Counted from the first letter of the stretch, positions 4,596 through 28,182 are shown. The stretch: 30,927 nt of DNA from a virus (IMGVR_UViG_3300034072_002219:1-30927); one strand, 5' to 3'. Numbers and translations: made by a program. Notes: generated by a model not told the origin, from the letters alone.

Positions 4596-4858
4596 CGCCA
4601 ACCTTCGACAAAGCGGGAGAGGGCGGCGAGCAGTTGGCCCGTCATTTCGTCCAGCGGTTCACCGGCGGCGATGGCGGCCTCGATCGTGAGCTTGGTGGCG
4701 TCGGCCATGTGCTCGATCGCTTCGTTGTCGAAGGCGATGTGGTCGCCGATCGGGCCGGAGCAGGCGCGCTCCAAGATCTCGGCGCAGGCGGTGGTGGCCT
4801 GGCTGGCGGCCACCATGGCGAGGCGGCGGAACGCCGGGCTGTCGACGACGCCGGTCAT
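4592..4858 (-). CDS. Small unknown early protein
   Basis: 88 residues (MTGVVDSPAFRRL...RFVEGW). No recognised family; mostly helical, mildly acidic, no transmembrane segment or Cys cluster. It is joined on both sides by ATGA overlaps (to the ASCH gene upstream and the 4116-4595 gene downstream), so it is almost certainly translated as part of the early operon. Confidence 0.72.
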   Translation of the reverse strand: MTGVVDSPAFRRLAMVAASQATTACAEILERACSGPIGDHIAFDNEAIEHMADATKLTIEAAIAAGEPLDEMTGQLLAALSRFVEGWR

Positions 4859-9372: not shown

Positions 9373-9750
9373 TCAGGCCGCGTCGAACATGCTCATCTGA
9401 TCGTCATCCTCGGGGCCGTCGCGCCGGGGCGGCAGCACGTGGGGGATCTGTTCGCGGGGGCATTGGGGCAGATCGAGGTCCGGCCGTTCGATCAGGCCCG
9501 GGTTGAAGGAATGGACGAACACCACCTGGGCAAGGAAGGTGTGTCCGCAGCCGCTGTTGGTGCAGTGGCAGATCAGGTGCTTGACGGTGGGCGTCACCCG
9601 CTCGCTCTTGCGGATGAAGGCCGGTGCTTCGCATTTGGGGCAGAGGATGAACGCGCTGTCCCGCGTCGCCTGGGTGGCCGCCGATCGCAGGCGGAACTGC
9701 AAGGGCGCCTCGATCAGACGGGCGCTGGCAATCATCCCTTCACCGCTCAT
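9373..9750 (-). CDS. ogr: Ogr/Delta-type late gene transcription activator
   Basis: 125 residues containing the exact metal motif of P2 Ogr and P4 Delta: C-x2-C-x22-C-x4-C at Cys37, Cys40, Cys63 and Cys68 (ILCPKCEAP ... CTNSGCGHTF). These proteins bind a dyad near -55 and recruit RNA polymerase to phage late promoters. Two candidate target dyads lie upstream of gpJ and gpW here. In P2 ogr follows gene D; here it sits in the early operon. The acidic tail (GPEDDDQMSMF) is an extension. ATG at 9750 has the leader AAGGGGAACCATC; earlier in-frame starts lack one. Confidence 0.82.
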   Translation of the reverse strand: MSGEGMIASARLIEAPLQFRLRSAATQATRDSAFILCPKCEAPAFIRKSERVTPTVKHLICHCTNSGCGHTFLAQVVFVHSFNPGLIERPDLDLPQCPREQIPHVLPPRRDGPEDDDQMSMFDAA

Positions 9751-10201
9751 GATGGTTCCCCTTTTCCAAGCGATCCAGCCCCGCCAGCCCATCGGTGAGG
9801 CTATCGATCGCTTCCTGAATTTCGGTGCGGGCGCGGGTCACCGCGCGGCGATCGGCATTGACGCCGGCGTCGAGCAGCGCGGCGATAGCCTCGCCCGCTT
9901 CCTTGGCCGCCTTGCCGCCCAGCGCGACCAGATCGCGATCCGGCGTCTCGCGATTGGCGAGATCGAGCCGGAGCGCATGCAGCCGGTGGAAGGGCGCATG
10001 GTCGCCGCCATGATCGAGAAAGGCACGGTCCAGCCGCTCGGCGTCGATCATGCGGATCTTGGTCTCGCAATCATGGTCGGAGAGGTAGCGGGCCATGCGC
10101 TCGCTGATGCCGAGAATGGCGCCGACCCGATCCCAGCCGATCGCGGCCGCGACGTTGGTCAGCGTGCGCTCATAGGTGAGGGGCTCGCGCAGCTTCGTCA
10201 T
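9740..10201 (-). CDS. CII-like phage regulatory protein
   Basis: 153 residues. The N-terminal half (LTYERTLTNVAAAIGWDRVGAILGISERMARYLSD) reads as a helix-turn-helix like the phage CII/CP76 regulators, and AERLDRAFLDHGGDHAPFH continues that pattern. The C-terminal half is Ala/Arg-rich helix, possibly for oligomerisation. It is the first clearly minus-strand gene of the early operon, and its stop overlaps the Ogr-like gene start by 11 bases. It may set lysogeny timing or replication licensing; family assignment is by pattern only. Confidence 0.65.
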   Translation of the reverse strand: MTKLREPLTYERTLTNVAAAIGWDRVGAILGISERMARYLSDHDCETKIRMIDAERLDRAFLDHGGDHAPFHRLHALRLDLANRETPDRDLVALGGKAAKEAGEAIAALLDAGVNADRRAVTRARTEIQEAIDSLTDGLAGLDRLEKGNHHER

Positions 10202-10770: not shown

Positions 10771-11010
10771 TTGCGGCATTACGTTGGACTGCTCATCGAG
10801 CAAGATCTCGAGTTTGAGCGCATCCCGGGTACGGATAAGGTGCTCATCCGCAATGCGGTTGAAGGACGTGATCTGTGCATTCGGATCCACCACCTCATGC
10901 GAGCCCAGGTGGAGATGCGCCGCGTCGTCACCGACTTTTTCAACGATACGAAGAAGCCCAAGGGGAACGTCATTCCTCTTCATGCGGCACCGCCCAGCAG
11001 GTCTTCGTAA
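10771..11010 (+). CDS. Small unknown protein convergent with the Cro-like gene
   Basis: 79 residues from a TTG at 10771 that follows GGGGGAAGAAG. The body (HYVGLLIEQDLEFERIPGTDK ... VEMRRVVTDFFND) looks like a compact soluble protein, and second codon positions are strongly AT-rich. The same frame opens at TTG 10690, but residues from there to 10770 look non-coding. Its end overlaps the Cro-like gene's end by 31 bases on the other strand. The competing minus-strand reading of 10198-10983 is discussed in the findings. Function unknown. Confidence 0.45.
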   Translation: MRHYVGLLIEQDLEFERIPGTDKVLIRNAVEGRDLCIRIHHLMRAQVEMRRVVTDFFNDTKKPKGNVIPLHAAPPSRSS

Positions 11011-11687: not shown

Positions 11688-11837
11688 TGCGGCGCGTTGT
11701 TTGTTGTAACTGCCCGGGCGCATTCCCGCGTAGTGCGTGTGGCGTACATTCAGGGGTCGCTTGAGCGCAAGCCGGGGGCGGCGCTTTCCGGAATTTACAT
11801 CGGGAAGAGCCGAATGTGTGCCGCCCAACGATGAAAT

Positions 11838-11854
11838 TTTACGCTGAAAGTAAT
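11838..11854. promoter_or_regulatory. Second operator-like palindrome
   Basis: TTTAC-GCTGAAA-GTAAT keeps the 5-7-5 layout of the operator at 11191 with one arm mismatch. A TTTACATCGGG half-site lies 44 bases before it. It might let the repressor or Cro control transcription downstream, or act as a looping site. Confidence 0.4.
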
Positions 11855-11985
11855 TCTTTTGTCTGATGTCGCTCGGCAGGCGAGTGCTTGGCCGGAGGTG
11901 GCGGCAGCGTGGACGACATGGGGGGGTGGGCAAGGGGTGCCGCCGCGCTCGTGGCTCGAATCAACATTGAGACGGGTGAATGATT

Positions 11986-12050
11986 AAACCATATTTTACC
12001 TAATTATTGTTGCTGTGGTAGATGCTTAAGCGCCATGTAAAATATAGTTT
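11986..12050. repeat. Spaced 14-base inverted repeat pair
   Basis: AAAC-C-ATATTTTAC at 11986-11999 and its inverse GTAAAATAT-A-GTTT at 12037-12050, matching at 13 of 14 positions with a 37-base spacer. Each arm contains the TTTAC core of the operators. It lies about 130 bases before the acyltransferase. Confidence 0.5.
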
Positions 12051-12176
12051 AACGGGTTATGTCGTAAAAATTGGCGATATATTGTTAGACTGGGTGGAGC
12101 TTATTGCAAGTTTAGCAATGGTGCCATAAGCGTTCTATGGCGTATGCCGATTTTGGCGTGATATATGGAATGTCAT

Positions 12177-13283
12177 ATGGCCAGACAGCGACTTGATAAT
12201 ATCGACGGGCTTCGTGGCCTTGCTGCACTCTCCGTTATTGTAGGTCACTGGCTCGAAATGTTGGTTAAGCATTTCGAGCTTACGAGGGTCGCGGGACCCT
12301 TGGTAGAGAACGTCGATTTCATATACTTCAGTCCAGGGCGGCTTGGTGTAGTAACTTTCTTCTGTATTTCAGGGTTCGTTATTCCATTTAGCTTTGGGGG
12401 TGATAGGCCTTTACGCACGTTCTTGCTAAGTCGGTTCTTCCGGCTGTACCCTGCGTATTGGTTTTCGCTTGCAGTCGGCATTCTCATAATACCAATGCTC
12501 GGTTTCGATAGCTTCAGTATGAAGCAGATACTGGCCAATATCACGATGGTTCAATTTGCTCTGAAGCAAAGGGACGTCCTCGGTGTCTACTGGACGCTGT
12601 TCGTTGAGATATTGTTCTACTCTATCTGCTTCGTCTCGGCTTGGCTAGGAATGCTGCATTCCCGCAGATTTAACTTCATCGCCATGGCAAGCTTTATGTC
12701 TCTTGCGGTCATCGGCGGCGTCTACCGTTACACGCACCCGGGAAGTACAATCTCGATTGGGGTTTTCACCTACCTCGCGGCTATGCACTTCGGAACTCTT
12801 GCGAGAATTGCATATCTGGAACAGCAGAGTGGCGATATGCGCAGCATCTACAGGAATGTCTCACTGTTGTTAGTGGGAGCGATATCAGCTAATACGCTCG
12901 GCTATATCCACGCGCACGACAAAACGACTGGTTGGATAGCAAGCAACACTAGCTACGTTGTGGGTGTTGCTCTGTTTATGCTCTGCGTACAGTTCCGACT
13001 ATTTACCAATGTGAGGTTGGTGTTCATCGGTGCGATCAGCTATTCGCTATATCTAATTCATCCGATTTTCATCGAGCTGGCGCGATACCTGCTCGCGGAA
13101 CAGGGGGTAGCTGCCGCGGCGGCGCTGTCTTTGCCAATAATCGTTATCGGCAGTTTCGGGGCGGCCTTCGCTATGCGCAAGGCGATCGAGCAGCCCGCCG
13201 TTCGGCTAGGGAAGCGGGTCGTTCGTCTGCTCGATCGCCGCCCGACCGGTCGACTGGAGGTTTCACCTCGCGCGTCGGTTTGA
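12177..13283 (+). CDS. Acyltransferase 3 (OafA/YrhL-type), lysogenic conversion
   Basis: 368 residues of the membrane acyltransferase 3 family, which acetylates or acylates cell-surface sugars such as O-antigen. The opening RLDNIDGLRGLAALSVIVGHW carries the family signature with the catalytic His; LSRFFRLYPAYWFSLAVGI is the second signature, and about ten hydrophobic segments follow (ending in ISYSLYLIHPIFIELARYLL). It would change the host surface and exclude related phages. Base composition is visibly more AT-rich than all neighbours and the strand is opposite to the late genes: a moron gene gained by transfer. ATG 12177 follows GGAA at 6-base spacing; ATG 12165 is an alternative. Confidence 0.88.
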   Translation: MARQRLDNIDGLRGLAALSVIVGHWLEMLVKHFELTRVAGPLVENVDFIYFSPGRLGVVTFFCISGFVIPFSFGGDRPLRTFLLSRFFRLYPAYWFSLAVGILIIPMLGFDSFSMKQILANITMVQFALKQRDVLGVYWTLFVEILFYSICFVSAWLGMLHSRRFNFIAMASFMSLAVIGGVYRYTHPGSTISIGVFTYLAAMHFGTLARIAYLEQQSGDMRSIYRNVSLLLVGAISANTLGYIHAHDKTTGWIASNTSYVVGVALFMLCVQFRLFTNVRLVFIGAISYSLYLIHPIFIELARYLLAEQGVAAAAALSLPIIVIGSFGAAFAMRKAIEQPAVRLGKRVVRLLDRRPTGRLEVSPRASV

Positions 13284-13312
13284 TTTGATTACTGCTCGCG
13301 GACGCCGGTGCT

Positions 13313-19502: not shown

Positions 19503-19886
19503 TCAGCTGGAGCGCTTGCCGCCCATCGTGGCGGGCAGGGGGATGGAGAGGGTGGAGGCGGCGTTGGCCGCCGCGGTGCCGGTGGGGCGATAGCGAACCG
19601 AGGCGGTAAGGTTACCCTCGGTCGCGACGCCGGTGATCGCGATGCCGGTGACCTTGCCCAGGCCGATCTCCGGCCCCCAGATGCGGAGCGCGATCGCGCA
19701 GGCCGCGCGCATCAGCATCGCGGTGACCGGGGTAACGGGCTGGTCGATCAGCTCGAACAGGAGCGAGCCGTAGTCGCGGCGCATGACGAGACTGCCCAGC
19801 GGCGTGCCGAGCACGTCCGCAACCGACTGCGCCAGGTGCGCAGCGCCGCCAAGGGCCTTTCCGGTGGTGGCGTCCATCCCGTTCAT
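19503..19886 (-). CDS. W: Baseplate wedge gpW (gp25-like)
   Basis: 127 residues of the P2 gpW / T4 gp25 baseplate wedge family: HLAQSVADVLGTPLGSLVMRRDYGSLLFELIDQPVTP is the signature, followed by AIALRIWGPEIGLGKVTGI. It links sheath to baseplate. In P2 it lies between V and J; here it directly precedes the sheath gene and is parted from V by a nuclease gene. ATG 19886 is supported by its fixed spacing from the late-promoter candidate; ATG 19877 is an alternative. Confidence 0.9.
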   Translation of the reverse strand: MNGMDATTGKALGGAAHLAQSVADVLGTPLGSLVMRRDYGSLLFELIDQPVTPVTAMLMRAACAIALRIWGPEIGLGKVTGIAITGVATEGNLTASVRYRPTGTAAANAASTLSIPLPATMGGKRSS

Positions 19887-19950
19887 GGGCCTGCGATGGC
19901 GCCGTTGGCGCCACGCGCGAAGGGGGTGGCTGTGTAGAGCGGCGGTTTAC
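19887..19950 (-). promoter_or_regulatory. Ogr-type late promoter candidate upstream of W
   Basis: Dyad GTAGA-N7-TTTAC (19934-19950, plus-strand reading) centred 56 bases before the W start, a C-rich block shared with the J promoter, and GCGCCAT (19902 to 19896 on the minus strand) ending nine bases before the ATG. P2 late promoters carry the Ogr dyad near -55 and lack a -35. That would place the transcript start almost at the ATG. Confidence 0.6.
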
Positions 19951-19954
19951 CCGG

Positions 19955-20332
19955 TCAGCGCCACGGGCGAGCGAGATTCCGCTGGATCAGATACGCGCCG
20001 GCGTCGCGGCCGTTGACCGCCAGCGTCGCCAAGGTGCGGCCATAGCGATCGGTGCCGATGCGGTGGACGGTGACGCGGCCCGATGCGAGGAAGGCTGCCA
20101 GGGCATTCCGGCTCCGCTCGGCCATGGCATAGTCGCACCAGCCATGGCCCTGCCGGCGGCGACATTTCGGGCTACCGCGCAACTCGGGCGCATCGATGTT
20201 GGCGATACGGATGCGCTCGCCCGCGCAGCTGCGCACGGTGTCGCCATCATGAATTGTGGCGAGGCAGAGCGCGGGGGCGGCGATAAGGGCGAGCAGCAGC
20301 ATGGCGCCGCGATATCGCCGATCAGACCGCAT
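19955..20332 (-). CDS. Secreted staphylococcal-nuclease-like protein
   Basis: 125 residues. A signal peptide (basic MRSDRRYRG, then AMLLLALIAAPALCLA) precedes an SNase domain with HDGDTV, ERIRIANIDAPELRG and TDRYGRTLATL, where the Asp, Glu and Arg residues expected for calcium binding and catalysis are found. It would be exported and cut DNA or RNA in the periplasm or outside. It overlaps the V stop by 11 bases and sits between V and W, an unusual place. Roles might include degrading DNA from lysed cells or competing phage DNA, or an accessory moron; none is shown. Confidence 0.85.
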   Translation of the reverse strand: MRSDRRYRGAMLLLALIAAPALCLATIHDGDTVRSCAGERIRIANIDAPELRGSPKCRRRQGHGWCDYAMAERSRNALAAFLASGRVTVHRIGTDRYGRTLATLAVNGRDAGAYLIQRNLARPWR

Positions 20333-20894
20333 CGCCAGTTAGACCGGTACCGGGCTGGACCTTGTCGTGATGGTGGCCCTTGAGGCTGATCGCCCCTGCC
20401 TTGACGTCGCCATCGGCGGTGGCGTCGCCCGTAACCGCCAGATCGCCCTCGATCCGCACCGGGCCGCGCAGGGTGATGCCGCCAGCCGCATCGACCAGGG
20501 CCGTGCCGCCGGCCGGCAGGATGGCGGTGAGCGCATGGGCCTCGGGATCGTAGCCGATGCGCGCGCCGTCCGCATATTCGATCAGCTCGGCCGGCGTGCT
20601 GCCCGGGGCTGGGAAGGCGTCGCTGTAGATCCCGACCAGCGCGACGGCGCCGGCGAGCTGCCCATCCGCCGCCAGCACGATCGCCTGTTCGCCGATGCTG
20701 GGCGGGGACCAGCTGCGCGTCTTGCCGGCGCGGATCGCCAGCCATCGGATCGGCGGCGTGACGGCGCCGCCATCGTCGTCATCCGGGTCGCCATAGCGGA
20801 CGGTGCATTTGCCGGCGGCGAGATCGACCGAGGCGATCGAGCCCAGCCGGATCAGCTCGGACAGGTCGGCGGGGATGTCTTCCTGCTGCCTCAC
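20322..20894 (-). CDS. V: Baseplate spike assembly protein gpV
   Basis: 190 residues of the P2 gpV / phage baseplate assembly V family: LSELIRLGSIASVDLAAGKCTVRYGD, WLAIRAGKTRSWSPPSIGEQAIVLAADGQL, then a repetitive beta region (ITLRGPVRIEGDLAVTGDATADGDV) and the metal-binding tip motif GHHHD. It forms the membrane-piercing spike. GTG at 20894 overlaps the Rz stop as GTGA; longer upstream reading is arginine-rich shadow sequence. Confidence 0.88.
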   Translation of the reverse strand: MRQQEDIPADLSELIRLGSIASVDLAAGKCTVRYGDPDDDDGGAVTPPIRWLAIRAGKTRSWSPPSIGEQAIVLAADGQLAGAVALVGIYSDAFPAPGSTPAELIEYADGARIGYDPEAHALTAILPAGGTALVDAAGGITLRGPVRIEGDLAVTGDATADGDVKAGAISLKGHHHDKVQPGTGLTGDAV

Positions 20895-21451
20895 TTGGCG
20901 GCGGCCTCTGCCGGCACCGCGACGCCGGCGGCGATCAGGTCGAGGGCTTGGCGGTGCATTTCGGCGGCACGGGCAGCAGCGGCCACAAGCTGTCGATCCT
21001 CGACGGCGGGGCGACAAACCAGGTCGGCAGCGGGATCGGATCCGTGAAGGCCCGGCTGAGCGGGATCGGGCTGGGGCAGATCGGCACCGCTGGGCTGACC
21101 TGCAACTGCCGGGCAGCGCAGGCGGGCAGCAGCATCGGCAGCGCTGCGGACGCGATCATAATAGGCAGGCGCTTCATGGTCGGACTTTCCTGCAAGGGCG
21201 CCGGCGATCGTCGCCGGGGCGTGGTTGACGGTGGCCTGGTCGATGCCCGCGCGCTTCGACGCGTCCTGCTTCCGGGTGATAGTCGCAGTGGCGGTGGCGA
21301 GGCGGGCGCTCAGCCCGTCGATCCAGAGGAAACCCTCGATCCGAATGGTCTGGACGGCGAGCGCCACGGCCAGGCCGATCGCCACGATCGCGGTGGCGAG
21401 TGCGGCACCCTGGGCAGCGCGTTGCGTGAGCGAGGCAAAGGGGTTGGGCAT
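20891..21451 (-). CDS. Rz: Rz-like inner-membrane spanin
   Basis: 186 residues with one N-terminal membrane segment (about residues 17-36, LATAIVAIGLAVALAVQTI) and a periplasmic helical part (GLSARLATATATITRKQDA; QLVAAAARAAEMHRQALDLI), the plan of an i-spanin. It lies after the endolysin and contains an out-of-frame lipoprotein ORF, the classic Rz/Rz1 arrangement. Together they would disrupt the outer membrane at lysis. The middle part (GQPSGADLPQPDPAQPG) is low-complexity where Rz1 overlaps. Confidence 0.78.
   Translation of the reverse strand: MPNPFASLTQRAAQGAALATAIVAIGLAVALAVQTIRIEGFLWIDGLSARLATATATITRKQDASKRAGIDQATVNHAPATIAGALAGKSDHEAPAYYDRVRSAADAAARLRCPAVAGQPSGADLPQPDPAQPGLHGSDPAADLVCRPAVEDRQLVAAAARAAEMHRQALDLIAAGVAVPAEAAAK
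20935..21177 (-). CDS. Rz1: Rz1-like outer-membrane spanin lipoprotein embedded in Rz
   Basis: 80 residues lying wholly inside Rz in another frame. MKRLPIMIASAALPMLLPAC has a lipoprotein signal peptide ending in a lipobox, with Cys20 as the lipidation site. The mature part is very rich in proline (PAVPICPSPIPLS, DPIPLPTW, LPVPPK), as in lambda Rz1. Start ATG at 21177; an upstream in-frame ATG at 21195 would add six residues. Confidence 0.78.
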   Translation of the reverse strand: MKRLPIMIASAALPMLLPACAARQLQVSPAVPICPSPIPLSRAFTDPIPLPTWFVAPPSRIDSLWPLLPVPPKCTAKPST

Positions 21452-21455
21452 GGCA

Positions 21456-21989
21456 TCAAGCCTCGTTGCTGGAGACCGCGGCGCCGGCGCCCGACGCGAC
21501 TTGGCGCGCGCCGGTGCGGGGTACGCCATCTGGCCAGCGGCGCGCGACGCAGCGCGACTTGCCGATGCGCATCACGTTGACGGCGTCGCTCTGGTTGCCG
21601 CCCAGGACATGGTAATAGGCGGCGTCCTCGGCGACGTAGAAGCCGACATGGCCGCCGCCCTCGCGTTCGAACACCAGCACGGCGCCGGGGGCGAGCTGGT
21701 CGGCGGTGAGCGGCGTTCCCCAACTCGCCCAGGACTTGGCGCGCAGCGCGATCTTCGGCGGAGTGAGGCCGGCCTGCTTGACGCACCAGGCCGCGAACAG
21801 GCCGCACCAGGGCACCGAGTCCGCGTTGTAGGCGGCGCCGAGCACGCCGACGCCGAGCCGCGCCGCCCAGCCCATGATCGTGGCGCTGTTCGGCACGCCG
21901 GGCACTTCCCGGGTGCCGATCAGCCCGCGCGCGATGGCGAGATAGGGCGGCTCGGCTGCGGTGGCGGGGCGGTTGGGCTGATCGGTCAT
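21456..21989 (-). CDS. Endolysin, NlpC/P60-CHAP-like peptidase (TIGR02594 type)
   Basis: 177 residues of the small cysteine-peptidase endolysin family. The catalytic core is VPWCGLFAAWCVKQAG (Cys62) with GGGHVGFYVAED (His114) and YYHVLGGNQSDAVNV. It should cut peptide bonds of peptidoglycan. There is no signal peptide, so release relies on the holin. ATG at 21989 overlaps the upstream gene as ATGA, and the gene lies between holin-like and spanin genes, a complete lysis cassette. Confidence 0.87.
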   Translation of the reverse strand: MTDQPNRPATAAEPPYLAIARGLIGTREVPGVPNSATIMGWAARLGVGVLGAAYNADSVPWCGLFAAWCVKQAGLTPPKIALRAKSWASWGTPLTADQLAPGAVLVFEREGGGHVGFYVAEDAAYYHVLGGNQSDAVNVMRIGKSRCVARRWPDGVPRTGARQVASGAGAAVSSNEA

Positions 21990-22150
21990 GGCTTTTCCTT
22001 TCGGCCGGCGCGGTCGAACAGGCGGTGGCCGGCGCGGGAGCCGGCGGGTTCGATGGCGCGGATGCGGGCATGGAGGCGGCGGGCGCGCCAGTAGCCGAAC
22101 AGGCAGAGCGCGGCCGACGCGAGGAAGACGACGAGGAACAGGTCCTTCAT
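21986..22150 (-). CDS. Small membrane protein in the lysis cassette
   Basis: 54 residues with one N-terminal hydrophobic segment (MKDLFLVVFLASAALCLFGYW) and a basic tail. Coupled to both neighbours by ATGA overlaps. It may be an antiholin, a second holin or a spanin-related part; the sequence does not decide. Confidence 0.7.
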   Translation of the reverse strand: MKDLFLVVFLASAALCLFGYWRARRLHARIRAIEPAGSRAGHRLFDRAGRKEKP

Positions 22151-22506
22151 GCGGCACCGTCCTGGGCTTCGCCCTGGATGCCGAGCCGCTTGCGGAAAAT
22201 GGTCTGGAGCGCATCGAGCGCAAAGGCGAAGCCTAGCGCGCCCATCACCATGGTGGCGATCACCACGCCCCAATCAGGCCAGGCCTTGAGCCGGCCGATG
22301 CCGAGCGCGACGGTGGCGAAGGCGGGCAGGGCGGACAGCTCGCTGAACACCAGCCAGCGGCGCTTGCGCTCCCACAGGCCAAGTGCTGCGGGATCGAGCG
22401 GCGGCTCGGGGGCGATGCCCCACAGCATCCAGCCGAGCCGCGCACCGACCATCGCCATGCCGCCGCACAGCGACCAGAGCCAGAGCAGGATATCTTCGAA
22501 TTTCAT
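22147..22506 (-). CDS. Holin-like membrane protein
   Basis: 119 residues with hydrophobic segments at about 5-28 (ILLWLWSLCGGMAMVGARLGWMLW), 52-70 (LVFSELSALPAFATVALGI) and 78-98 (DWGVVIATMVMGALGFAFAL), and a short polar tail. Size, three-segment plan and position just before the endolysin indicate a phage holin of the Sphingomonas/Rhizobium type. GGGAGG precedes the ATG at 22506. Confidence 0.72.
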   Translation of the reverse strand: MKFEDILLWLWSLCGGMAMVGARLGWMLWGIAPEPPLDPAALGLWERKRRWLVFSELSALPAFATVALGIGRLKAWPDWGVVIATMVMGALGFAFALDALQTIFRKRLGIQGEAQDGAA

Positions 22507-22534
22507 AGGTAAAGGCCTCCCGGCTCCTTGCGGA

Positions 22535-24964
22535 TCAACTATTGTTCCACTTCTCGACGATCGCGTAATAGGTGGCGCTCGTCACATCGACGGCCGACGA
22601 TGTTGGATTGAACACGCTGACACTGACGACGTCATTTGCGCTCACGCGCCCAGACACGATCAGGTCGCCGTAATTGAGCGAGCATGCGATATTCACCATG
22701 TCGCGCACCCGCGCGCCGGGCATCGGGATATCGAAACTGGCGTACCCAAGTGCTGCGATCGGCGGCAGGTTGTAGGTCAGCGGGCCGAGCAGCGTCTTGG
22801 CCGCATCGCGCCGCCAATAGGTGCCGTCCCACCGCCATCCGGTCTCACCGCGCGCGGCTTGATATTTGTGGAGGACATCGCCTGGCGCCCAGGTGCCGAC
22901 CGTGAGAGGTAGCACCCATTCGGCGGCAACCGCGTCGAAGGCTTCGGATACGCCAACGATAGACCAGCCGCCGTCAAGGGAAGGGTAGAAGCTGATATTC
23001 TGATTTGCGAGCAGGACGCGCTGGTTCAAATTGCGGTAATTATTCAGGTTGAACCCGTCCGCGCTGGCGACCAGTTCATTGAAGACGCCGCCATCCGAAG
23101 CGCAATTCTCGATGATGTTACCGAGAACGGTGGAAGCGACGGCACGTCGCGCCGTTCCGCTGGTACCGGTCATGCGGCTATTGCGGATGATGTTCGGCGC
23201 CGACTGAACGACAATCGCGTGCGTTCCGCCGGCGGCGACTTCCCAGCTACCACTTACCTCGAAGCCGGCAATGTCGGGATCGATCGTAATCGGCGACCTC
23301 GCTTTCGCGCGCCCGGTGATCACCGTATCGACGGACATGCCTGGGGCGTTCGGAAAGCGGGCATAGACGCCGATGCCGGAATCGTTTTCGACATCCACGT
23401 TCAGCGTCAGATCGCGCTGGTACCCACCGGCGAGCGCGTTGTTATCGCCGAACTCCATCTTGACGCCCGACGCGGTCGGATCCCCAAACACACGAACGAA
23501 CACGTCGAAGCGGCTGCGGCAGCAAATCCCTTTGATGTTGACCAACGCCTCGTTGGTCGGGGTTGCCCGGCGTCGCGTGACCGATGCTCGGCAGTCGCAG
23601 TCGACGGCATTGAAGAATTCCACGCCGGTGCAGTCCGGCTCCTGGACCGTGGCACTGAGACGCGCGCCGCGACCAAATTGAAGGTGGACGGTATCGTTGC
23701 GGTTCTCGGTGGTGATGTTGTTGTCGAGATTATAGACGCCGGGTCCCACAGCAACGACGTCCACCGATCCGCCGATGATCCCCTCCACCACGCAGACCGC
23801 CATGCCGACATCGGTGGCGAGAATGTTGATGCGGGATGCTGTCCACGAGCGGCCGCGTACCGCCTTCGGGGTCCCCACCGAAGGACTGGGGCTCGCGGCG
23901 ACACAGGTCAGGTTGAAGTCGCAGCCATAGATCCAGTTCAACTGGATATTCTGCGTCGCCTGATTGGTGTTGCGTGCGCGCGACGTGATGTTGCCGCGAC
24001 AGTTGGTAGCCCATTCGAGGAGGAGCCCGACGCCGGAACTTTCGCTGTCAAGCCAGTCGGCGTCGATGTTGCTGTCGATCACATAGCGCAGCGTGACCGA
24101 AACGTTGCGCAGCTTGAGGCGGGAAAGATCCACCCGCTTCGGCAACACCTTTGCGGCACTGATCGCGTACAGGGTATCCGTGCCGGCGTTATTGCTGACC
24201 GTCTGCGCATCGAGACCATAGGGGATGGACTGATGCAGCTTGATGACCAGGTTGGCGGTGTCCACCGCACGCACCTGCATCATCGCCGACCAGACGACAT
24301 TCCGCCCGCTGTTGTCGGTCCAGGCGCCGGGAAGATGGCCGCTCAGGACAACCCAATCGCCAGCCGCCAAGGGGCCGGTCAGTTCGGTGTATGCAAATTC
24401 CCGAGCGCCGGCGGTGATCGCCGTTTGCGCGGGCGTGATGGTGGTTCCCGTATCAACCGATCCGCCGAGCGTAAGCGACACCGGGCTTGCAGCCGTCAAC
24501 GTCGCATAGTCGATCGCGGTGACGGTGAGGGCAGAGAGCGAGGCGGCAAGCGCGAAGCTGCTGCCGCCGCCCGCAAAGGCGCCGCCGGTGGCCAGCGCAT
24601 CGGCAGCGCTCGCATAACGGGAAAGCTGCTTTCCCAGCGCGTCGATCATCGCGCGCGTAGCGACGACGCCGATCGCCGTACCGGCAGCATTGTACCAGGT
24701 CAGCGTGCCGGTCTGGTCGCTGATAAAGGTGCTGGGGGCGACCGTGTCTGCCACACCCTCTGCAATGGTCGCGTAATAGCGCGGCGGGAGGGAAGCGATG
24801 TCGCCGGCGGCTTGCGCCAGCGCCTCGGCATAGGGGGCTGCGATCCGTTCGAAATACTGGGCGCCGGAGGTCCGGCGGGTAACGCCGCCCTTTACCACGG
24901 GCATCAGCTCGGTGCCGTCGACATCGGCCGTGGCGAGGATGGGCAGATTGCTGATCTTTGCCAT
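22535..24964 (-). CDS. Tailspike-like receptor-binding protein (beta-helix)
   Basis: 809 residues. The N-terminal 110 residues (AKISNLPILATADVDGTELMPVVKGGVTRRTSGAQYF) match the virion-attachment head found on many phage tail proteins. Residues about 300-620 have repeated short strands with Asn/Asp turns (SRINILATDVGMAVCVVEGIIGGSVDVVAVG), typical of a parallel beta-helix as in pectate lyases and tailspike depolymerases. The C-terminal 160 residues would be the trimer or receptor domain. It may bind or cut host polysaccharide; no catalytic site can be assigned. It is a second adsorption protein beside the gpH-type fibre. Codons are somewhat less GC-rich than in the structural genes. Confidence 0.75.
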   Translation of the reverse strand: MAKISNLPILATADVDGTELMPVVKGGVTRRTSGAQYFERIAAPYAEALAQAAGDIASLPPRYYATIAEGVADTVAPSTFISDQTGTLTWYNAAGTAIGVVATRAMIDALGKQLSRYASAADALATGGAFAGGGSSFALAASLSALTVTAIDYATLTAASPVSLTLGGSVDTGTTITPAQTAITAGAREFAYTELTGPLAAGDWVVLSGHLPGAWTDNSGRNVVWSAMMQVRAVDTANLVIKLHQSIPYGLDAQTVSNNAGTDTLYAISAAKVLPKRVDLSRLKLRNVSVTLRYVIDSNIDADWLDSESSGVGLLLEWATNCRGNITSRARNTNQATQNIQLNWIYGCDFNLTCVAASPSPSVGTPKAVRGRSWTASRINILATDVGMAVCVVEGIIGGSVDVVAVGPGVYNLDNNITTENRNDTVHLQFGRGARLSATVQEPDCTGVEFFNAVDCDCRASVTRRRATPTNEALVNIKGICCRSRFDVFVRVFGDPTASGVKMEFGDNNALAGGYQRDLTLNVDVENDSGIGVYARFPNAPGMSVDTVITGRAKARSPITIDPDIAGFEVSGSWEVAAGGTHAIVVQSAPNIIRNSRMTGTSGTARRAVASTVLGNIIENCASDGGVFNELVASADGFNLNNYRNLNQRVLLANQNISFYPSLDGGWSIVGVSEAFDAVAAEWVLPLTVGTWAPGDVLHKYQAARGETGWRWDGTYWRRDAAKTLLGPLTYNLPPIAALGYASFDIPMPGARVRDMVNIACSLNYGDLIVSGRVSANDVVSVSVFNPTSSAVDVTSATYYAIVEKWNNS

Positions 24965-25425
24965 CAGGCGTCTCCGAACACTGGCCAGAGGGGGTTGGTG
25001 GCGACGGGAAAGCCGGGCAGCGCATCGTCTTCGGCCGCGGCAACCAGCTCCTCGATCGCGCCAGAGGCAGCGCGGATCGCGTCGATCGCCGAGAAGCGCA
25101 CCGAGCCTTCGTCGTTCGGCATCCGCAGGTCATTGAGCTGGCGCCAGATCGGGCTGACCAGACCGATGCGGCGATAGGCTTCCGCCTTGATCGCGCGGAC
25201 CAGCGCGGCCCGGCGCTCCGTGGGGGCGATCACCGGGGCGGCCGCGATCGGCGCGCTGGTTTCTGGGCAACAAGACAACACCCCGCCGGCCGCGAGCTGC
25301 GCCATGCAGTTCGCATGCACGCTTGCATCGACCGGCACCGCGTCCTCGGGGATCTGGCTGGAGATGTCGGGGAGGTAGAAGCCGTGGGTGGACGGGCTCC
25401 ACAGCAAGTTGTCCTGGTCGGTCAT
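24964..25425 (-). CDS. Tail fibre assembly protein (Tfa-like)
   Basis: 153 residues. NLLWSPSTHGFYLPDISSQIPEDAVPVDASVHANCMAQLAAGG resembles the start of tail fibre assembly chaperones, and the C-terminal part is helical with a short aromatic end (LPGFPVATNPLWPVFGDA). It follows the fibre gene with an ATGA overlap, where Tfa proteins are expected, and precedes the tailspike with a TGATG overlap. It may help fold either one. Confidence 0.65.
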   Translation of the reverse strand: MTDQDNLLWSPSTHGFYLPDISSQIPEDAVPVDASVHANCMAQLAAGGVLSCCPETSAPIAAAPVIAPTERRAALVRAIKAEAYRRIGLVSPIWRQLNDLRMPNDEGSVRFSAIDAIRAASGAIEELVAAAEDDALPGFPVATNPLWPVFGDA

Positions 25426-26471
25426 GCGATGCCCTCCGCCCGCCAGTTGACGCCGGAGAGCGCACCGTCGCCGCCGCTGGACGGGTCCTGGATCCAGAGC
25501 TGCACCTGGGTGGTGCTCCGGGTGCCGACGATTTCCTGGAAGAAATTGTCGTAGTCGCCGCCGCCAGGGATCACGGGGGTCAGCTGCAGATCATAGTCGG
25601 TGTTGGCGAAGGCGATCGGGAAGGTGATCGTAACCGCCTGCTGCCCGTTGTAGCTGGAACGGGCCAGTCCGCGTTGCACCAGCGTGCCCCCGGGGAAGAC
25701 CTCATAGCCGATAGCACCGCGCTGCCGGGGAAGGCCGCCAAACGCCGCCGGGGTGACCGCCTTGTCGGTCGCCAATGCCGCCTGCAGTTCGGCGGCGCTG
25801 GCCGCCGTGACCGTCAGGTTGCGATCGGCGCCCAGATCGCCGCCGCCGGTGACCAGCCCGCCGCCCGTAATGGAGCGGCTGGCGACTGCCGATATCGCTG
25901 TCCCCAGGTCGACAATCGCCGACAGGATCGAGGCCAGTCTCGCGCGGAGCGTCTTCGGCGTGACGATGGTTTCGGCGTCGTCGCCAGCGTCGTCCGCTGC
26001 GTTCACCCGGTCCTGCGTTGCCAGCTTGGCCACGCCGCGCGTCGTCTCGGTGGCGGGCGGCCAGGTGAAGATGGCATTGCCGAAATCGATCGACGCGCCG
26101 AAATCGCCGGCGAAGCGGATATCGAAGGCGAGCAGCGCGAAGGCGAGCGACGCCTTGAACAGCACGGGATCGGCCTGGCTGTAGGTGGCGATCAGCGTGC
26201 CGTCGCTGGCGAACAGGCCGAAGCCGGTGGCCGTCCAGACATCGGCGGAGGTGTCGTAGACCGTCACGTGCGCGATGTTGGGCGCGGCCGCCACGCCCGA
26301 GGTAACCGGCAGCCGCTTGAACTCGCCGGGCAAGGCGGTGATCGTCGGCGCGGCATCGAACGGCGTGGCCGTGAGACCGAGCTGCGAAATCACCATCTGG
26401 TCGGAGCCAGACTCGCCCTGGACGGCGGCGGCGCCGGCCTCGGTGAGTTGCAGGATTAGCGGATTGGCCAT
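25422..26471 (-). CDS. H: Tail fibre protein (gpH-like)
   Basis: 349 residues. The N-terminal 130 residues match P2 gpH-type fibres (LTEAGAAAVQ ... VTVYDTSADVWTATGFGLFASDGTLIATYSQADPVLFKASLAFALLAFDIRF). The motif ATETTRGVAKLATQDRVNAADDAGDDAETIVTPKTL is a widespread fibre linker, and the C-terminal domain (QAVTITFPIAFANTDYDLQLTP) is a gp53-like tip found on short fibres. It is shorter than P2 gpH (669 residues), lacking most shaft repeats. It follows I by 3 bases. Confidence 0.85.
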   Translation of the reverse strand: MANPLILQLTEAGAAAVQGESGSDQMVISQLGLTATPFDAAPTITALPGEFKRLPVTSGVAAAPNIAHVTVYDTSADVWTATGFGLFASDGTLIATYSQADPVLFKASLAFALLAFDIRFAGDFGASIDFGNAIFTWPPATETTRGVAKLATQDRVNAADDAGDDAETIVTPKTLRARLASILSAIVDLGTAISAVASRSITGGGLVTGGGDLGADRNLTVTAASAAELQAALATDKAVTPAAFGGLPRQRGAIGYEVFPGGTLVQRGLARSSYNGQQAVTITFPIAFANTDYDLQLTPVIPGGGDYDNFFQEIVGTRSTTQVQLWIQDPSSGGDGALSGVNWRAEGIA

Positions 26472-26474
26472 CGC

Positions 26475-27125
26475 CTATTGCTCCAGATATTCGGCGCCGT
26501 CGCCGTCGCCGTCGCGGATCGGCTCGCCGTCTTCGGTCTGCAGGACGAGGCCCCAGTTGCGGCTGGTATCGAGCGCCGCATCATAGTCGGCGCGGGCCAG
26601 CGTGCCGGTCATCCCGGCGGTAGCGAGGTAGATCGACAGCTGCGCCGACAGCGTCTGGACGAAATCGAAGTGTGCGCGCAGCGGCTTGGCGGCGGCGACG
26701 TCGCGGATGATCGCATCGGCCACCTCGGCGGTGAGGAAGCTGGTGGGCACCTCGGCGATGTCGGCGCGGATCTGGAAGCTGTGCGGGCGGCCGCGCGGGG
26801 TGGTTTCCCACCATTCGAGGATGCGCAGCAGCGGGTGGAAGCGGGCCAGCACCTGTTCCACCGCCGCGCGGCTGCCCTTGATCTTGTGGAAGGCGACGGC
26901 GCCGGCGACGGCCGCGCGCTTTTCCGCCACGCTCCAGTTCGTGTCCCAATGGCTGATCGCCAAGCCCCAGCCGAGGAACGGCAGCACCTCCGCCGGGCAG
27001 GCGGCGGGATCGAGCATGGTCTCCAGCGTCGAATAGTCGATGTCCGCGCGCATCGCGGCCTCGATCGCGCGCATGCTGGCGGTGGCGTTAGGCGGCAACA
27101 GGGTGGTGGCGCGGGTGTCGGTCAC
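26475..27125 (-). CDS. I: Baseplate protein gpI
   Basis: 216 residues of the P2 tail protein I family: LLPPNATASMRAIEAAMRADIDYSTLETMLDPAACPAEVLPFLGWGLAISHWDTNWSVAEKRAAV and HKIKGSRAAVEQVL are conserved. It belongs to the baseplate wedge to which fibres attach. GTG at 27125 overlaps the J stop as GTGA. The C-terminal 60 residues extend beyond P2 gpI. Confidence 0.92.
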   Translation of the reverse strand: MTDTRATTLLPPNATASMRAIEAAMRADIDYSTLETMLDPAACPAEVLPFLGWGLAISHWDTNWSVAEKRAAVAGAVAFHKIKGSRAAVEQVLARFHPLLRILEWWETTPRGRPHSFQIRADIAEVPTSFLTAEVADAIIRDVAAAKPLRAHFDFVQTLSAQLSIYLATAGMTGTLARADYDAALDTSRNWGLVLQTEDGEPIRDGDGDGAEYLEQ

Positions 27126-28117
27126 AGCTCGGTGCCCCCAATGGTGACGGACACGCTGGTGGGATTGCCGATCTGCGCGTCGCTGATCGGGATATCGTCC
27201 GGCGGCGAGATCAGGTTGACGCGCTGGACGTTGCCGACGTGCAGCGCCGCGATGATCGCAGAGCGGGCGACGTCCCGGCCGAGCTTGCGGATGCTGGCGA
27301 GGTGGGCGGCAAGCGCGGCCCGGGCGGTATCGAGGATCAGCGTCTGATCCGGGCCGGCGAAGACGTAGATCTCGGCGACGATTGCGAAGTCGACGCGCTG
27401 GGCGGGCTGGACGATCACGCGATCGGTGAGCGGGCGGACATCGCCCTGCAGCGCCGTGTCGACCGCAGCGAGCAGCGTCGCATCTGGCACGCCGGTGGTG
27501 GTATTGGCCAGCACCGTCACGCGGACGTCGCCGGGCCAGTCGGCGCTATCGAGCGCCGTTGTCATCGCGCCGGTCAGCGCGGCAGAAGCGCCGTGGTCGG
27601 CGAGCACCTGCAGCACCAGCGCGCGAATGTCTGCCGGCGTTGGCGAGGTCGCGGTAGCATCGGCGACTTGGCCCGAGGCGGACAGCGCGTGGTAGATATA
27701 GGCCTGTTCCGGCCCGGCGACGCTGAACTGGTGGGGGGCAAGCTGGATCCGGCGCTTATAGTCGGTGTCGCTCTCCATCACGGCGGCGGTGGTGCCGGTG
27801 GCCGGCGTGACGGTGAGGCGCGGGCAATCGACCATGGCGCCGAGCTGGTCGAGGTCATCGCCTTCCGCGAATGCCAGCAGGCGGGCCTTGGCGACTTCGT
27901 TGAACGCCTGCGCGAGGTTCAGCTCGTCATAGCTGTCGGCGAGCAGCAGCTTGTAGGCGGGATCGCTTTCGACCAGCGCCGTGAAGTCCGGGTAGAGCCC
28001 CGTGAGGCGCGCGACCTTGGCGGCCAGCCGCGTCTCGAAATCCGGCTGCGTGACCAGCGTCGGCGCGGGCAGCGCGGAAAGGTCCACCGAGGGAGAGGAG
28101 GCGATCGAACCGACCAT
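27122..28117 (-). CDS. J: Baseplate wedge protein gpJ
   Basis: 331 residues of the baseplate J family. Landmarks: LVESDPAYKLLLADSYDELNLAQAFNEVAKARLLAFAEGDDLDQLGAMVDCPRL, SDTDYKRRIQLAPHQFSVAGPEQAYIYHALSASGQVADA and VRPLTDRVIVQPAQRVDF. First gene of a predicted Ogr-driven operon; its ATG at 28117 has no good ribosome-binding site, which fits a leaderless or nearly leaderless mRNA. Confidence 0.94.
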   Translation of the reverse strand: MVGSIASSPSVDLSALPAPTLVTQPDFETRLAAKVARLTGLYPDFTALVESDPAYKLLLADSYDELNLAQAFNEVAKARLLAFAEGDDLDQLGAMVDCPRLTVTPATGTTAAVMESDTDYKRRIQLAPHQFSVAGPEQAYIYHALSASGQVADATATSPTPADIRALVLQVLADHGASAALTGAMTTALDSADWPGDVRVTVLANTTTGVPDATLLAAVDTALQGDVRPLTDRVIVQPAQRVDFAIVAEIYVFAGPDQTLILDTARAALAAHLASIRKLGRDVARSAIIAALHVGNVQRVNLISPPDDIPISDAQIGNPTSVSVTIGGTEL

Positions 28118-28182
28118 GGCCCCGGCATGGCGCGGTGCCCCGCGCGCGCGGAAGGGGGCAGCGGTGTAGAGGGGCGTTCTAC
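28118..28182 (-). promoter_or_regulatory. Ogr-type late promoter candidate upstream of J
   Basis: Dyad GTAGA-N7-TCTAC (28166-28182), a perfect five-base palindrome centred 57 bases before the J start. CTCTACAC, CCCCCTTC and GCGCCAT (ending nine bases before the ATG) recur with nearly equal spacing upstream of W, while the coding sequences around them differ. The fixed layout and the Ogr-like gene make an activator-dependent late promoter likely. Confidence 0.65.

Follow-up and report, generated by a model that had tools for sequence, protein, structure and literature searches.

Late transcription in phage P2 (AF063097) starts at the four promoters PP, PO, PV and PF, which are served by the zinc-finger activator Ogr, carry a dyad roughly 55 to 58 bp upstream of the start, and have no −35 box. 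The published P2 late-promoter consensus is TGT-N12-ACA (PMC3931495). In the P2 record, the distance from the site centre to the annotated start is 56 (P), 55 (O), 55.5 (V) and 57 to 59 nt (F), a TRGC element lies near −37, and P and O diverge from a shared site. P2 leaders are annotated as 23 nt at P, 40 nt at O and ~25 nt at F; P, O and FI combine a leader with a Shine-Dalgarno sequence, and the PV start is annotated exactly on the V ATG, giving a leader of 0 nt and no Shine-Dalgarno sequence. Phage 186 (U32222), in which B is the Ogr homologue, has three late promoters (p12, pV and pJ) whose site centres lie 54.5 to 58.5 nt from the annotated starts (individual values 54.5, 57.5 and 58.5 nt), with TAGC near −37 at pJ and p12 and leaders of 23 to 31 nt on all three annotated late mRNAs. 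The Stenotrophomonas phage Smp131 (JQ809663) encodes an Ogr-like protein, and promoters have been proposed before its J gene and its V/W-FI operon, with published TGT-N12-ACA sites inside P and J (PMC3931495). Leaderless mRNAs are numerous in the Sphingomonadales and other Alphaproteobacteria, with 119 in Zymomonas mobilis, a member of the Sphingomonadales (PMC7566282), and 375 in Caulobacter, where they are translated as well as others (PMC4117421). A literature search whose scope excluded subscription papers on P2 returned no paper linking P2-like late promoters with leaderless mRNAs.

The DNA analysed here, called the window throughout and meaning the whole stretch, is a 30,927-base virus record with a P2-like late region on its minus strand, as assigned with PHROGs and Pfam. 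Late genes run from the head completion genes L, S and R (called as tail terminator and neck) through J, I, fibre, fibre assembly, CHAP, gpV-like and SNase-like genes to W, the sheath gene FI, the tube gene FII, E, the tape measure gene T and D, followed by the Ogr gene, primase and integrase; capsid scaffold, portal and terminase genes lie outside the window. The order is the same as in Smp131. The window represents part of a P2-like phage and is kin to sphingomonad prophages, the closest relatives with named hosts being prophages of Novosphingobium, Sphingobium, Sphingomonas and Erythrobacter. The Ogr-like protein belongs to the Ogr_Delta family (PF04606, 47.7 bits against a cut-off of 26.3), its translation contains the exact cysteine spacing given in Table 1, and PF04606 was found in 48 of the 50 records searched. 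A search for relatives of the protein among solved structures gave no meaningful match.

Table 1. Features of the J and W late promoter regions and of the candidate activator gene in the window
Feature	Position	Strand	Remarks
Ogr/Delta-type zinc-finger activator gene	9373..9792	-	CX2CX22CX4C; predicted to bind both dyads
Gene W (GPW_gp25 baseplate wedge)	19503..19886	-	heads W-FI-FII-E-T-D operon; ATG; predicted near-leaderless; no Shine-Dalgarno core
GCGCCAT at W	19896..19902	-	weak −10-like element
CCCCCTTC at W	19919..19926	-	includes conserved T at dyad centre +21 (19921)
W operon Ogr-type dyad GTAAACCGCCGCTCTAC	19934..19950	-	centre 19942, 56 nt before W ATG
Gene J (baseplate)	27122..28117	-	heads J operon; ATG; predicted near-leaderless; no Shine-Dalgarno core
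GCGCCAT at J	28127..28133	-	weak −10-like element, A/T at ~−11/−10; weakly conserved
CCCCCTTC at J	28151..28158	-	includes conserved T at dyad centre +21 (28153)
J operon Ogr-type dyad GTAGAACGCCCCTCTAC	28166..28182	-	centre 28174, 57 nt before J ATG

An earlier reading made from the sequence alone (the sequence-only reading) had described, upstream of J and W, a shared dyad whose centre lies 57 (J) and 56 nt (W) ahead of the start codon, common stretches and a GCGCCAT element, and all of these were confirmed. On the minus strand the J dyad reads GTAGA-ACGCCCC-TCTAC and the W dyad GTAAA-CCGCCGC-TCTAC, the latter appearing as GTAGA-N7-TTTAC on the plus strand, and both are 17 bp long with the form GTA-N11-TAC. 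Both upstream regions also carry CTCTACAC, CCCCCTTC and GCGCCAT, the last of which stops nine bases short of both start codons. The J and W sites were also tested against the literal P2 consensus TGT-N12-ACA and do not match it, their outer base being G and not T, and they are therefore classed as a variant; TGT-N13-ACA is found in symmetric relatives, and P2 PV itself is TGT-N11-ACA. Separately, an inverted repeat, TGGCGCC-AAC-GGCGCCA, lies closely upstream of the W start at 19897-19913 (dyad centre +29 to +45), and GGCGCC-N3-GGCGCC is retained at this position with a different loop in four relatives (L002, L013, L014 and L016). Directly before the W promoter ends a staphylococcal-nuclease homologue (PF00565; 19955-20332), and several relatives have a similar coding end there.

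The pattern GTARA-N7-TCTAC occurred at only two places in the 30.9 kb, before J and before W, and none of 100 dinucleotide shuffles matched this. A 36-column weight matrix built from 43 non-redundant promoters of relatives, with the window and its nearest relative (L002) excluded, ranked the W site first in the window (26.4 bits) and the J site second (23.8 bits), against a maximum of 14.1 bits in 30 Markov shuffles. The looser pattern GTAR-N9-YTAC added one place, a GTA-N11-TAC dyad at 24879-24895 that the matrix ranked third with 18.9 bits. This dyad was rejected as a promoter: it sits within a long open reading frame of the fibre region, where it codes for VKGGVTR, and the ATG that follows 56 nt further on is in a different frame. 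The third dyad is probably a coding coincidence.

The suggestion that the dyads are Ogr-type sites was strengthened by their behaviour in related phages. As in the window, matching sites stood before the J and W operons of related phages and, beyond the reach of the window, in the divergent gap between the terminase gene P and the capsid scaffold gene O, where a single dyad faces both sides; these positions suggest a late regulon driven from common sites. The arms of the dyad co-varied as a palindrome (GTAGA/TCTAC, GTAGC/GCTAC and GTAAC/GTTAC), in Sphingomonas prophages the window dyad formed the core of TTGTAGAA-N5-TTCTACAA, and GTTGT...ACAAC stood at an unchanged distance in other related phages. 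Moreover, the J, W and P sites within one phage resembled each other, matching at 6.97 of 8 variable arm bases compared with 4.0 expected from shuffled partners (0/2000 permutations), and two phages (L053 and L003) carried identical 17-mer dyads at J and W. The scan also picked "dyads" at J of L047 and at W of L073 and L004, which were discarded as false. We note that in seven phages (L004, L006, L007, L008, L009, L010 and L020) the J operon and W-FI lie on opposite strands; W has no dyad there, and the J promoter has a GTTGT..ACAAC site with a spacing of 56 to 58.5.

Divergence of the sites followed divergence of Ogr more than that of the tail sheath. Across 34 phages, site distance correlated with Ogr distance (r = 0.66), with a partial r of 0.34 given tail-sheath distance (0/2000), and the partial r between site and sheath distance given Ogr was only 0.10. 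Within the window's clade alone, the partial value for site and Ogr was 0.33 (39/2000). The correlation supports, without proving, Ogr as the probable partner of the dyads.

The spacing of the dyad was kept across dozens of related phages. In regions unselected for spacing, which came from relatives and so form a non-independent sample, the start codon lay 56 to 60 nt from the dyad centre in 39/39 dyad-bearing J regions (38 ATG and one GTG), in 19/20 W regions and in 18/19 P regions. The J regions include viral contigs without a named host and a Brevundimonas prophage at 58.5; the one W exception was L038 (75 nt), and the P region left out of the 18 was that of L120. These tallies (39, 20 and 19) are the only ones made without selection; the 67 sites behind the conservation profiles and the Shine-Dalgarno count were picked by an ATG at 54 to 61. 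Upstream of W in L038, ATGATCGGC occurs twice, 17 nt apart and out of frame; the copy further upstream stands at 58 nt, the usual distance, and the aligned W start lies at 75. The spacer from +26 to +55 of the J, W and P promoters had a mean identity of only 38 to 39%, and thus the spacing has held while the sequence drifts. The O gene, on the other side of the P dyad, has its ATG 87 to 124 nt away, in most cases with GGAG or a comparable site in front of it. The spacing of 56 to 60 nt is not universal, because J of the Stenotrophomonas relatives lies at 77 nt.

To place the transcription start, the sequence-only reading had relied on a P2 rule that sets the dyad near −55, and the P2 and 186 records uphold it, with site centres 54.5 to 58.5 nt before the annotated starts. 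Because the start codons of J and W lie 56 to 57 bp from the dyad centre, transcription is predicted to begin at the ATG. A second anchor is a T at dyad centre +21, which was present in 42/42 non-redundant J and W promoters and in half of the P promoters, usually with a G at +23. The T of TAGC lies at −37 in P2 PF and PP and in 186 pJ and p12 and at −36 in PV, and PO has TGGC at −35; 186 pV does not fit the pattern. The conserved T lies 36 nt from the ATG of J and 35 nt from that of W in the window, and 35 to 39 nt from it over the promoters. Taken together, the dyad centre and the T predict starts within ~3 nt of both ATGs. The −10 element is weak and loosely conserved, and the predicted start nucleotide thus rests on the spacing rules of E. 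coli phages; the CAT-like −10 of J and W fits the alphaproteobacterial −10 element, which has no conserved T at −7 (PMC7566282). For leaderless late starts P2 provides a precedent that the sequence-only reading did not mention, the annotated PV start coinciding with the V ATG.

Translation signals agreed with the near-leaderless starts that had been proposed. A Shine-Dalgarno core of four bases, counted at −16 to −5, preceded only 2/67 of the J, W and P genes but 17/20 of O, 35/36 of FI, 35/35 of FII and 17/18 of T, compared with 9.5% of random places, and predicted anti-Shine-Dalgarno pairing energy at J, W and P was at the random level. Shine-Dalgarno sequences are thus used where there is a leader or an upstream gene and are absent where the spacing leaves no room. 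An apparent pairing at P over 20 nt was due to a distant GGGGTG run and was set aside in favour of the −16 to −5 window. C at −1 was considered as an initiator signature and rejected: it was enriched, but also at the Shine-Dalgarno-led FI and L genes, and so does not discriminate. Leaders of 0 to 5 nt on the J, W and P mRNAs of an Ogr-type late regulon appear to be the best reading.

We conclude that the J and W regions are probably Ogr-dependent late promoters of a P2-like phage that would start transcription at the ATG and support leaderless translation. In this scheme the Ogr/Delta-type protein would bind each GTA-N11-TAC dyad ~55 to 58 bp upstream of the start and recruit host RNA polymerase, such that a −35 box would not be needed and a weak −10 element would be enough. 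Transcription of J and W would then begin on the A of the ATG or no more than ~3 nt from it, and translation would start in leaderless mode without Shine-Dalgarno pairing. The same design would apply to the terminase gene P in relatives, with O and the inner operon genes retaining leaders or Shine-Dalgarno sites.

One could instead suppose that the sites are of the Ogr type but that transcription starts 8 to 25 nt ahead of the ATG, so that mRNAs with short leaders and no Shine-Dalgarno sequence would be translated by ordinary 30S initiation. Alphaproteobacterial genes often lack Shine-Dalgarno sequences even with leaders (75% of Caulobacter genes lack them; PMC4117421), the weak −10 makes the start uncertain, and Sphingomonas J genes at 59 to 60 nt have room for up to ~5 nt. 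Nevertheless, both anchors taken from annotated P2 and 186 starts, the dyad centre and the T at −37, point to the ATG; the ATG is fixed at 56 to 60 from the dyad and that of O, behind the same dyad, is not; and the same phages use Shine-Dalgarno sequences at O, FI, FII and T. We consider such leaders unlikely. Short leaders could also arise if the J and W start codons were misassigned and the true starts lay further in, and W indeed has a second ATG at codon 4 (MNGM) that would leave a leader of ~9 nt. That is highly improbable, as both proteins are conserved from the first ATG onwards (N-termini MVGS in J and MNGM/MIGM in W), the W homologues of operons that lack this promoter and have W at an internal position start at the same residue, and the inner starts have no preceding Shine-Dalgarno sequence.

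Binding of the dyads by a repressor or a host regulator in place of Ogr would account for a site that departs from the literal P2 consensus, and dyad operators are common. The position near −55 agrees, however, with the activator sites of P2 and 186, the site types form a continuum from GGTA..TACC through TTGTA..TACAA to the P2-like GTTGT..ACAAC at constant distance, and the change in sites tracks the change in an Ogr protein that nearly all of the records encode; we regard a different protein as improbable. That the motifs arose by coincidence in unconstrained intergenic DNA might be entertained because they are short and the DNA is GC rich, but conservation in over 30 phages, together with the shuffles and the cross-validated matrix, leaves this next to no credibility.

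Promoters of this kind are already known from P2; what makes the present one a variant is its site sequence, together with the leaderless starts predicted for three of the four late operons. In contrast to the P2 promoters before V and FI, the promoters of the window stand before J and W and have sites of the GTA-N11-TAC type. The mRNAs of J and W, and in relatives also of P, are predicted to be nearly leaderless, unlike the P, O and F mRNAs of P2, with their leaders and Shine-Dalgarno sequences, and the late mRNAs of 186, with their leaders. Smp131 resembles the window in its GTA-N11-TAC dyads, one lying in the P-O gap and one ahead of J (4642-4658 and 10877-10893), but its J start lies ~77 nt from the dyad, which would leave a leader of ~20 nt. 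The published Smp131 sites lie elsewhere, inside P and J, and those late-promoter assignments look misplaced. The predicted J and W mRNAs would resemble the leaderless mRNAs of Caulobacter (PMC4117421) and Zymomonas (PMC7566282) in having a start codon at or within 5 nt of the 5′ end and no Shine-Dalgarno sequence, a form frequently met among bacteria of the host class. In those bacteria it concerns host genes with ordinary promoters, whereas here a phage activator would fix the spacing of a late regulon.

The sequence-only reading had called the site alphaproteobacterial, and in this respect it was partly too narrow. The V gene lies 55.5 to 58 nt from a dyad in P2, Wphi, Fels-2 and the Burkholderia phages FLC5 and FLC10, and P of FLC5 lies at 56, in a non-sphingomonad sample that is small and relies on annotated starts; V of Mannheimia phage PHL101 lies at 83 and has an annotated ribosome-binding site. 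Leaderlessness of the first baseplate gene may therefore go far back in P2-like phages, with loss in some hosts, and the sphingomonad phages may extend leaderless starts to J, W and P. It is quite possible, if somewhat short of probable, that this is a class of P2-like phages in which the spacing from activator to start is tuned onto the start codon of the first gene in three of four late operons, such that leaderless entry would be normal for terminase, baseplate and tail genes, leaders would be kept only for the capsid operon, and a leaderless PV would be old in the group as a whole. If so, leaderless entry could set protein ratios or favour 70S initiation late in infection. The arrangement would amount to an explicit late-promoter code for sphingomonad P2-like phages, consisting of a dyad, T at −37, a weak −10 and the start codon at +1. 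Such a code would link the activation of transcription with leaderless translation of the virion genes, and it would predict starts of late genes that annotation programs may overlook. P2, with one of its four late mRNAs annotated as leaderless, offers a ready system for the effect of leaderlessness on late expression.

Two further observations concern neighbouring sequences. Six phages (L003, L107, L112, L113, L122 and L123) carry, at dyad centre +41 to +65, a perfect palindrome of 21 to 25 bp, GTGCATGGC-N3-GCCATGCAC, which extends over the −10 region and the start codon of the terminase gene P. If the mRNA has no leader, an RNA hairpin is excluded, and the palindrome may therefore be an operator. 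In the window, the region 11750-13300 has a GC content of 45 to 50%, compared with ~66% overall, and contains an acyltransferase gene on the plus strand (12165-13283). The region is likely a recent insert, and its O-acetyltransferase could alter the host surface.
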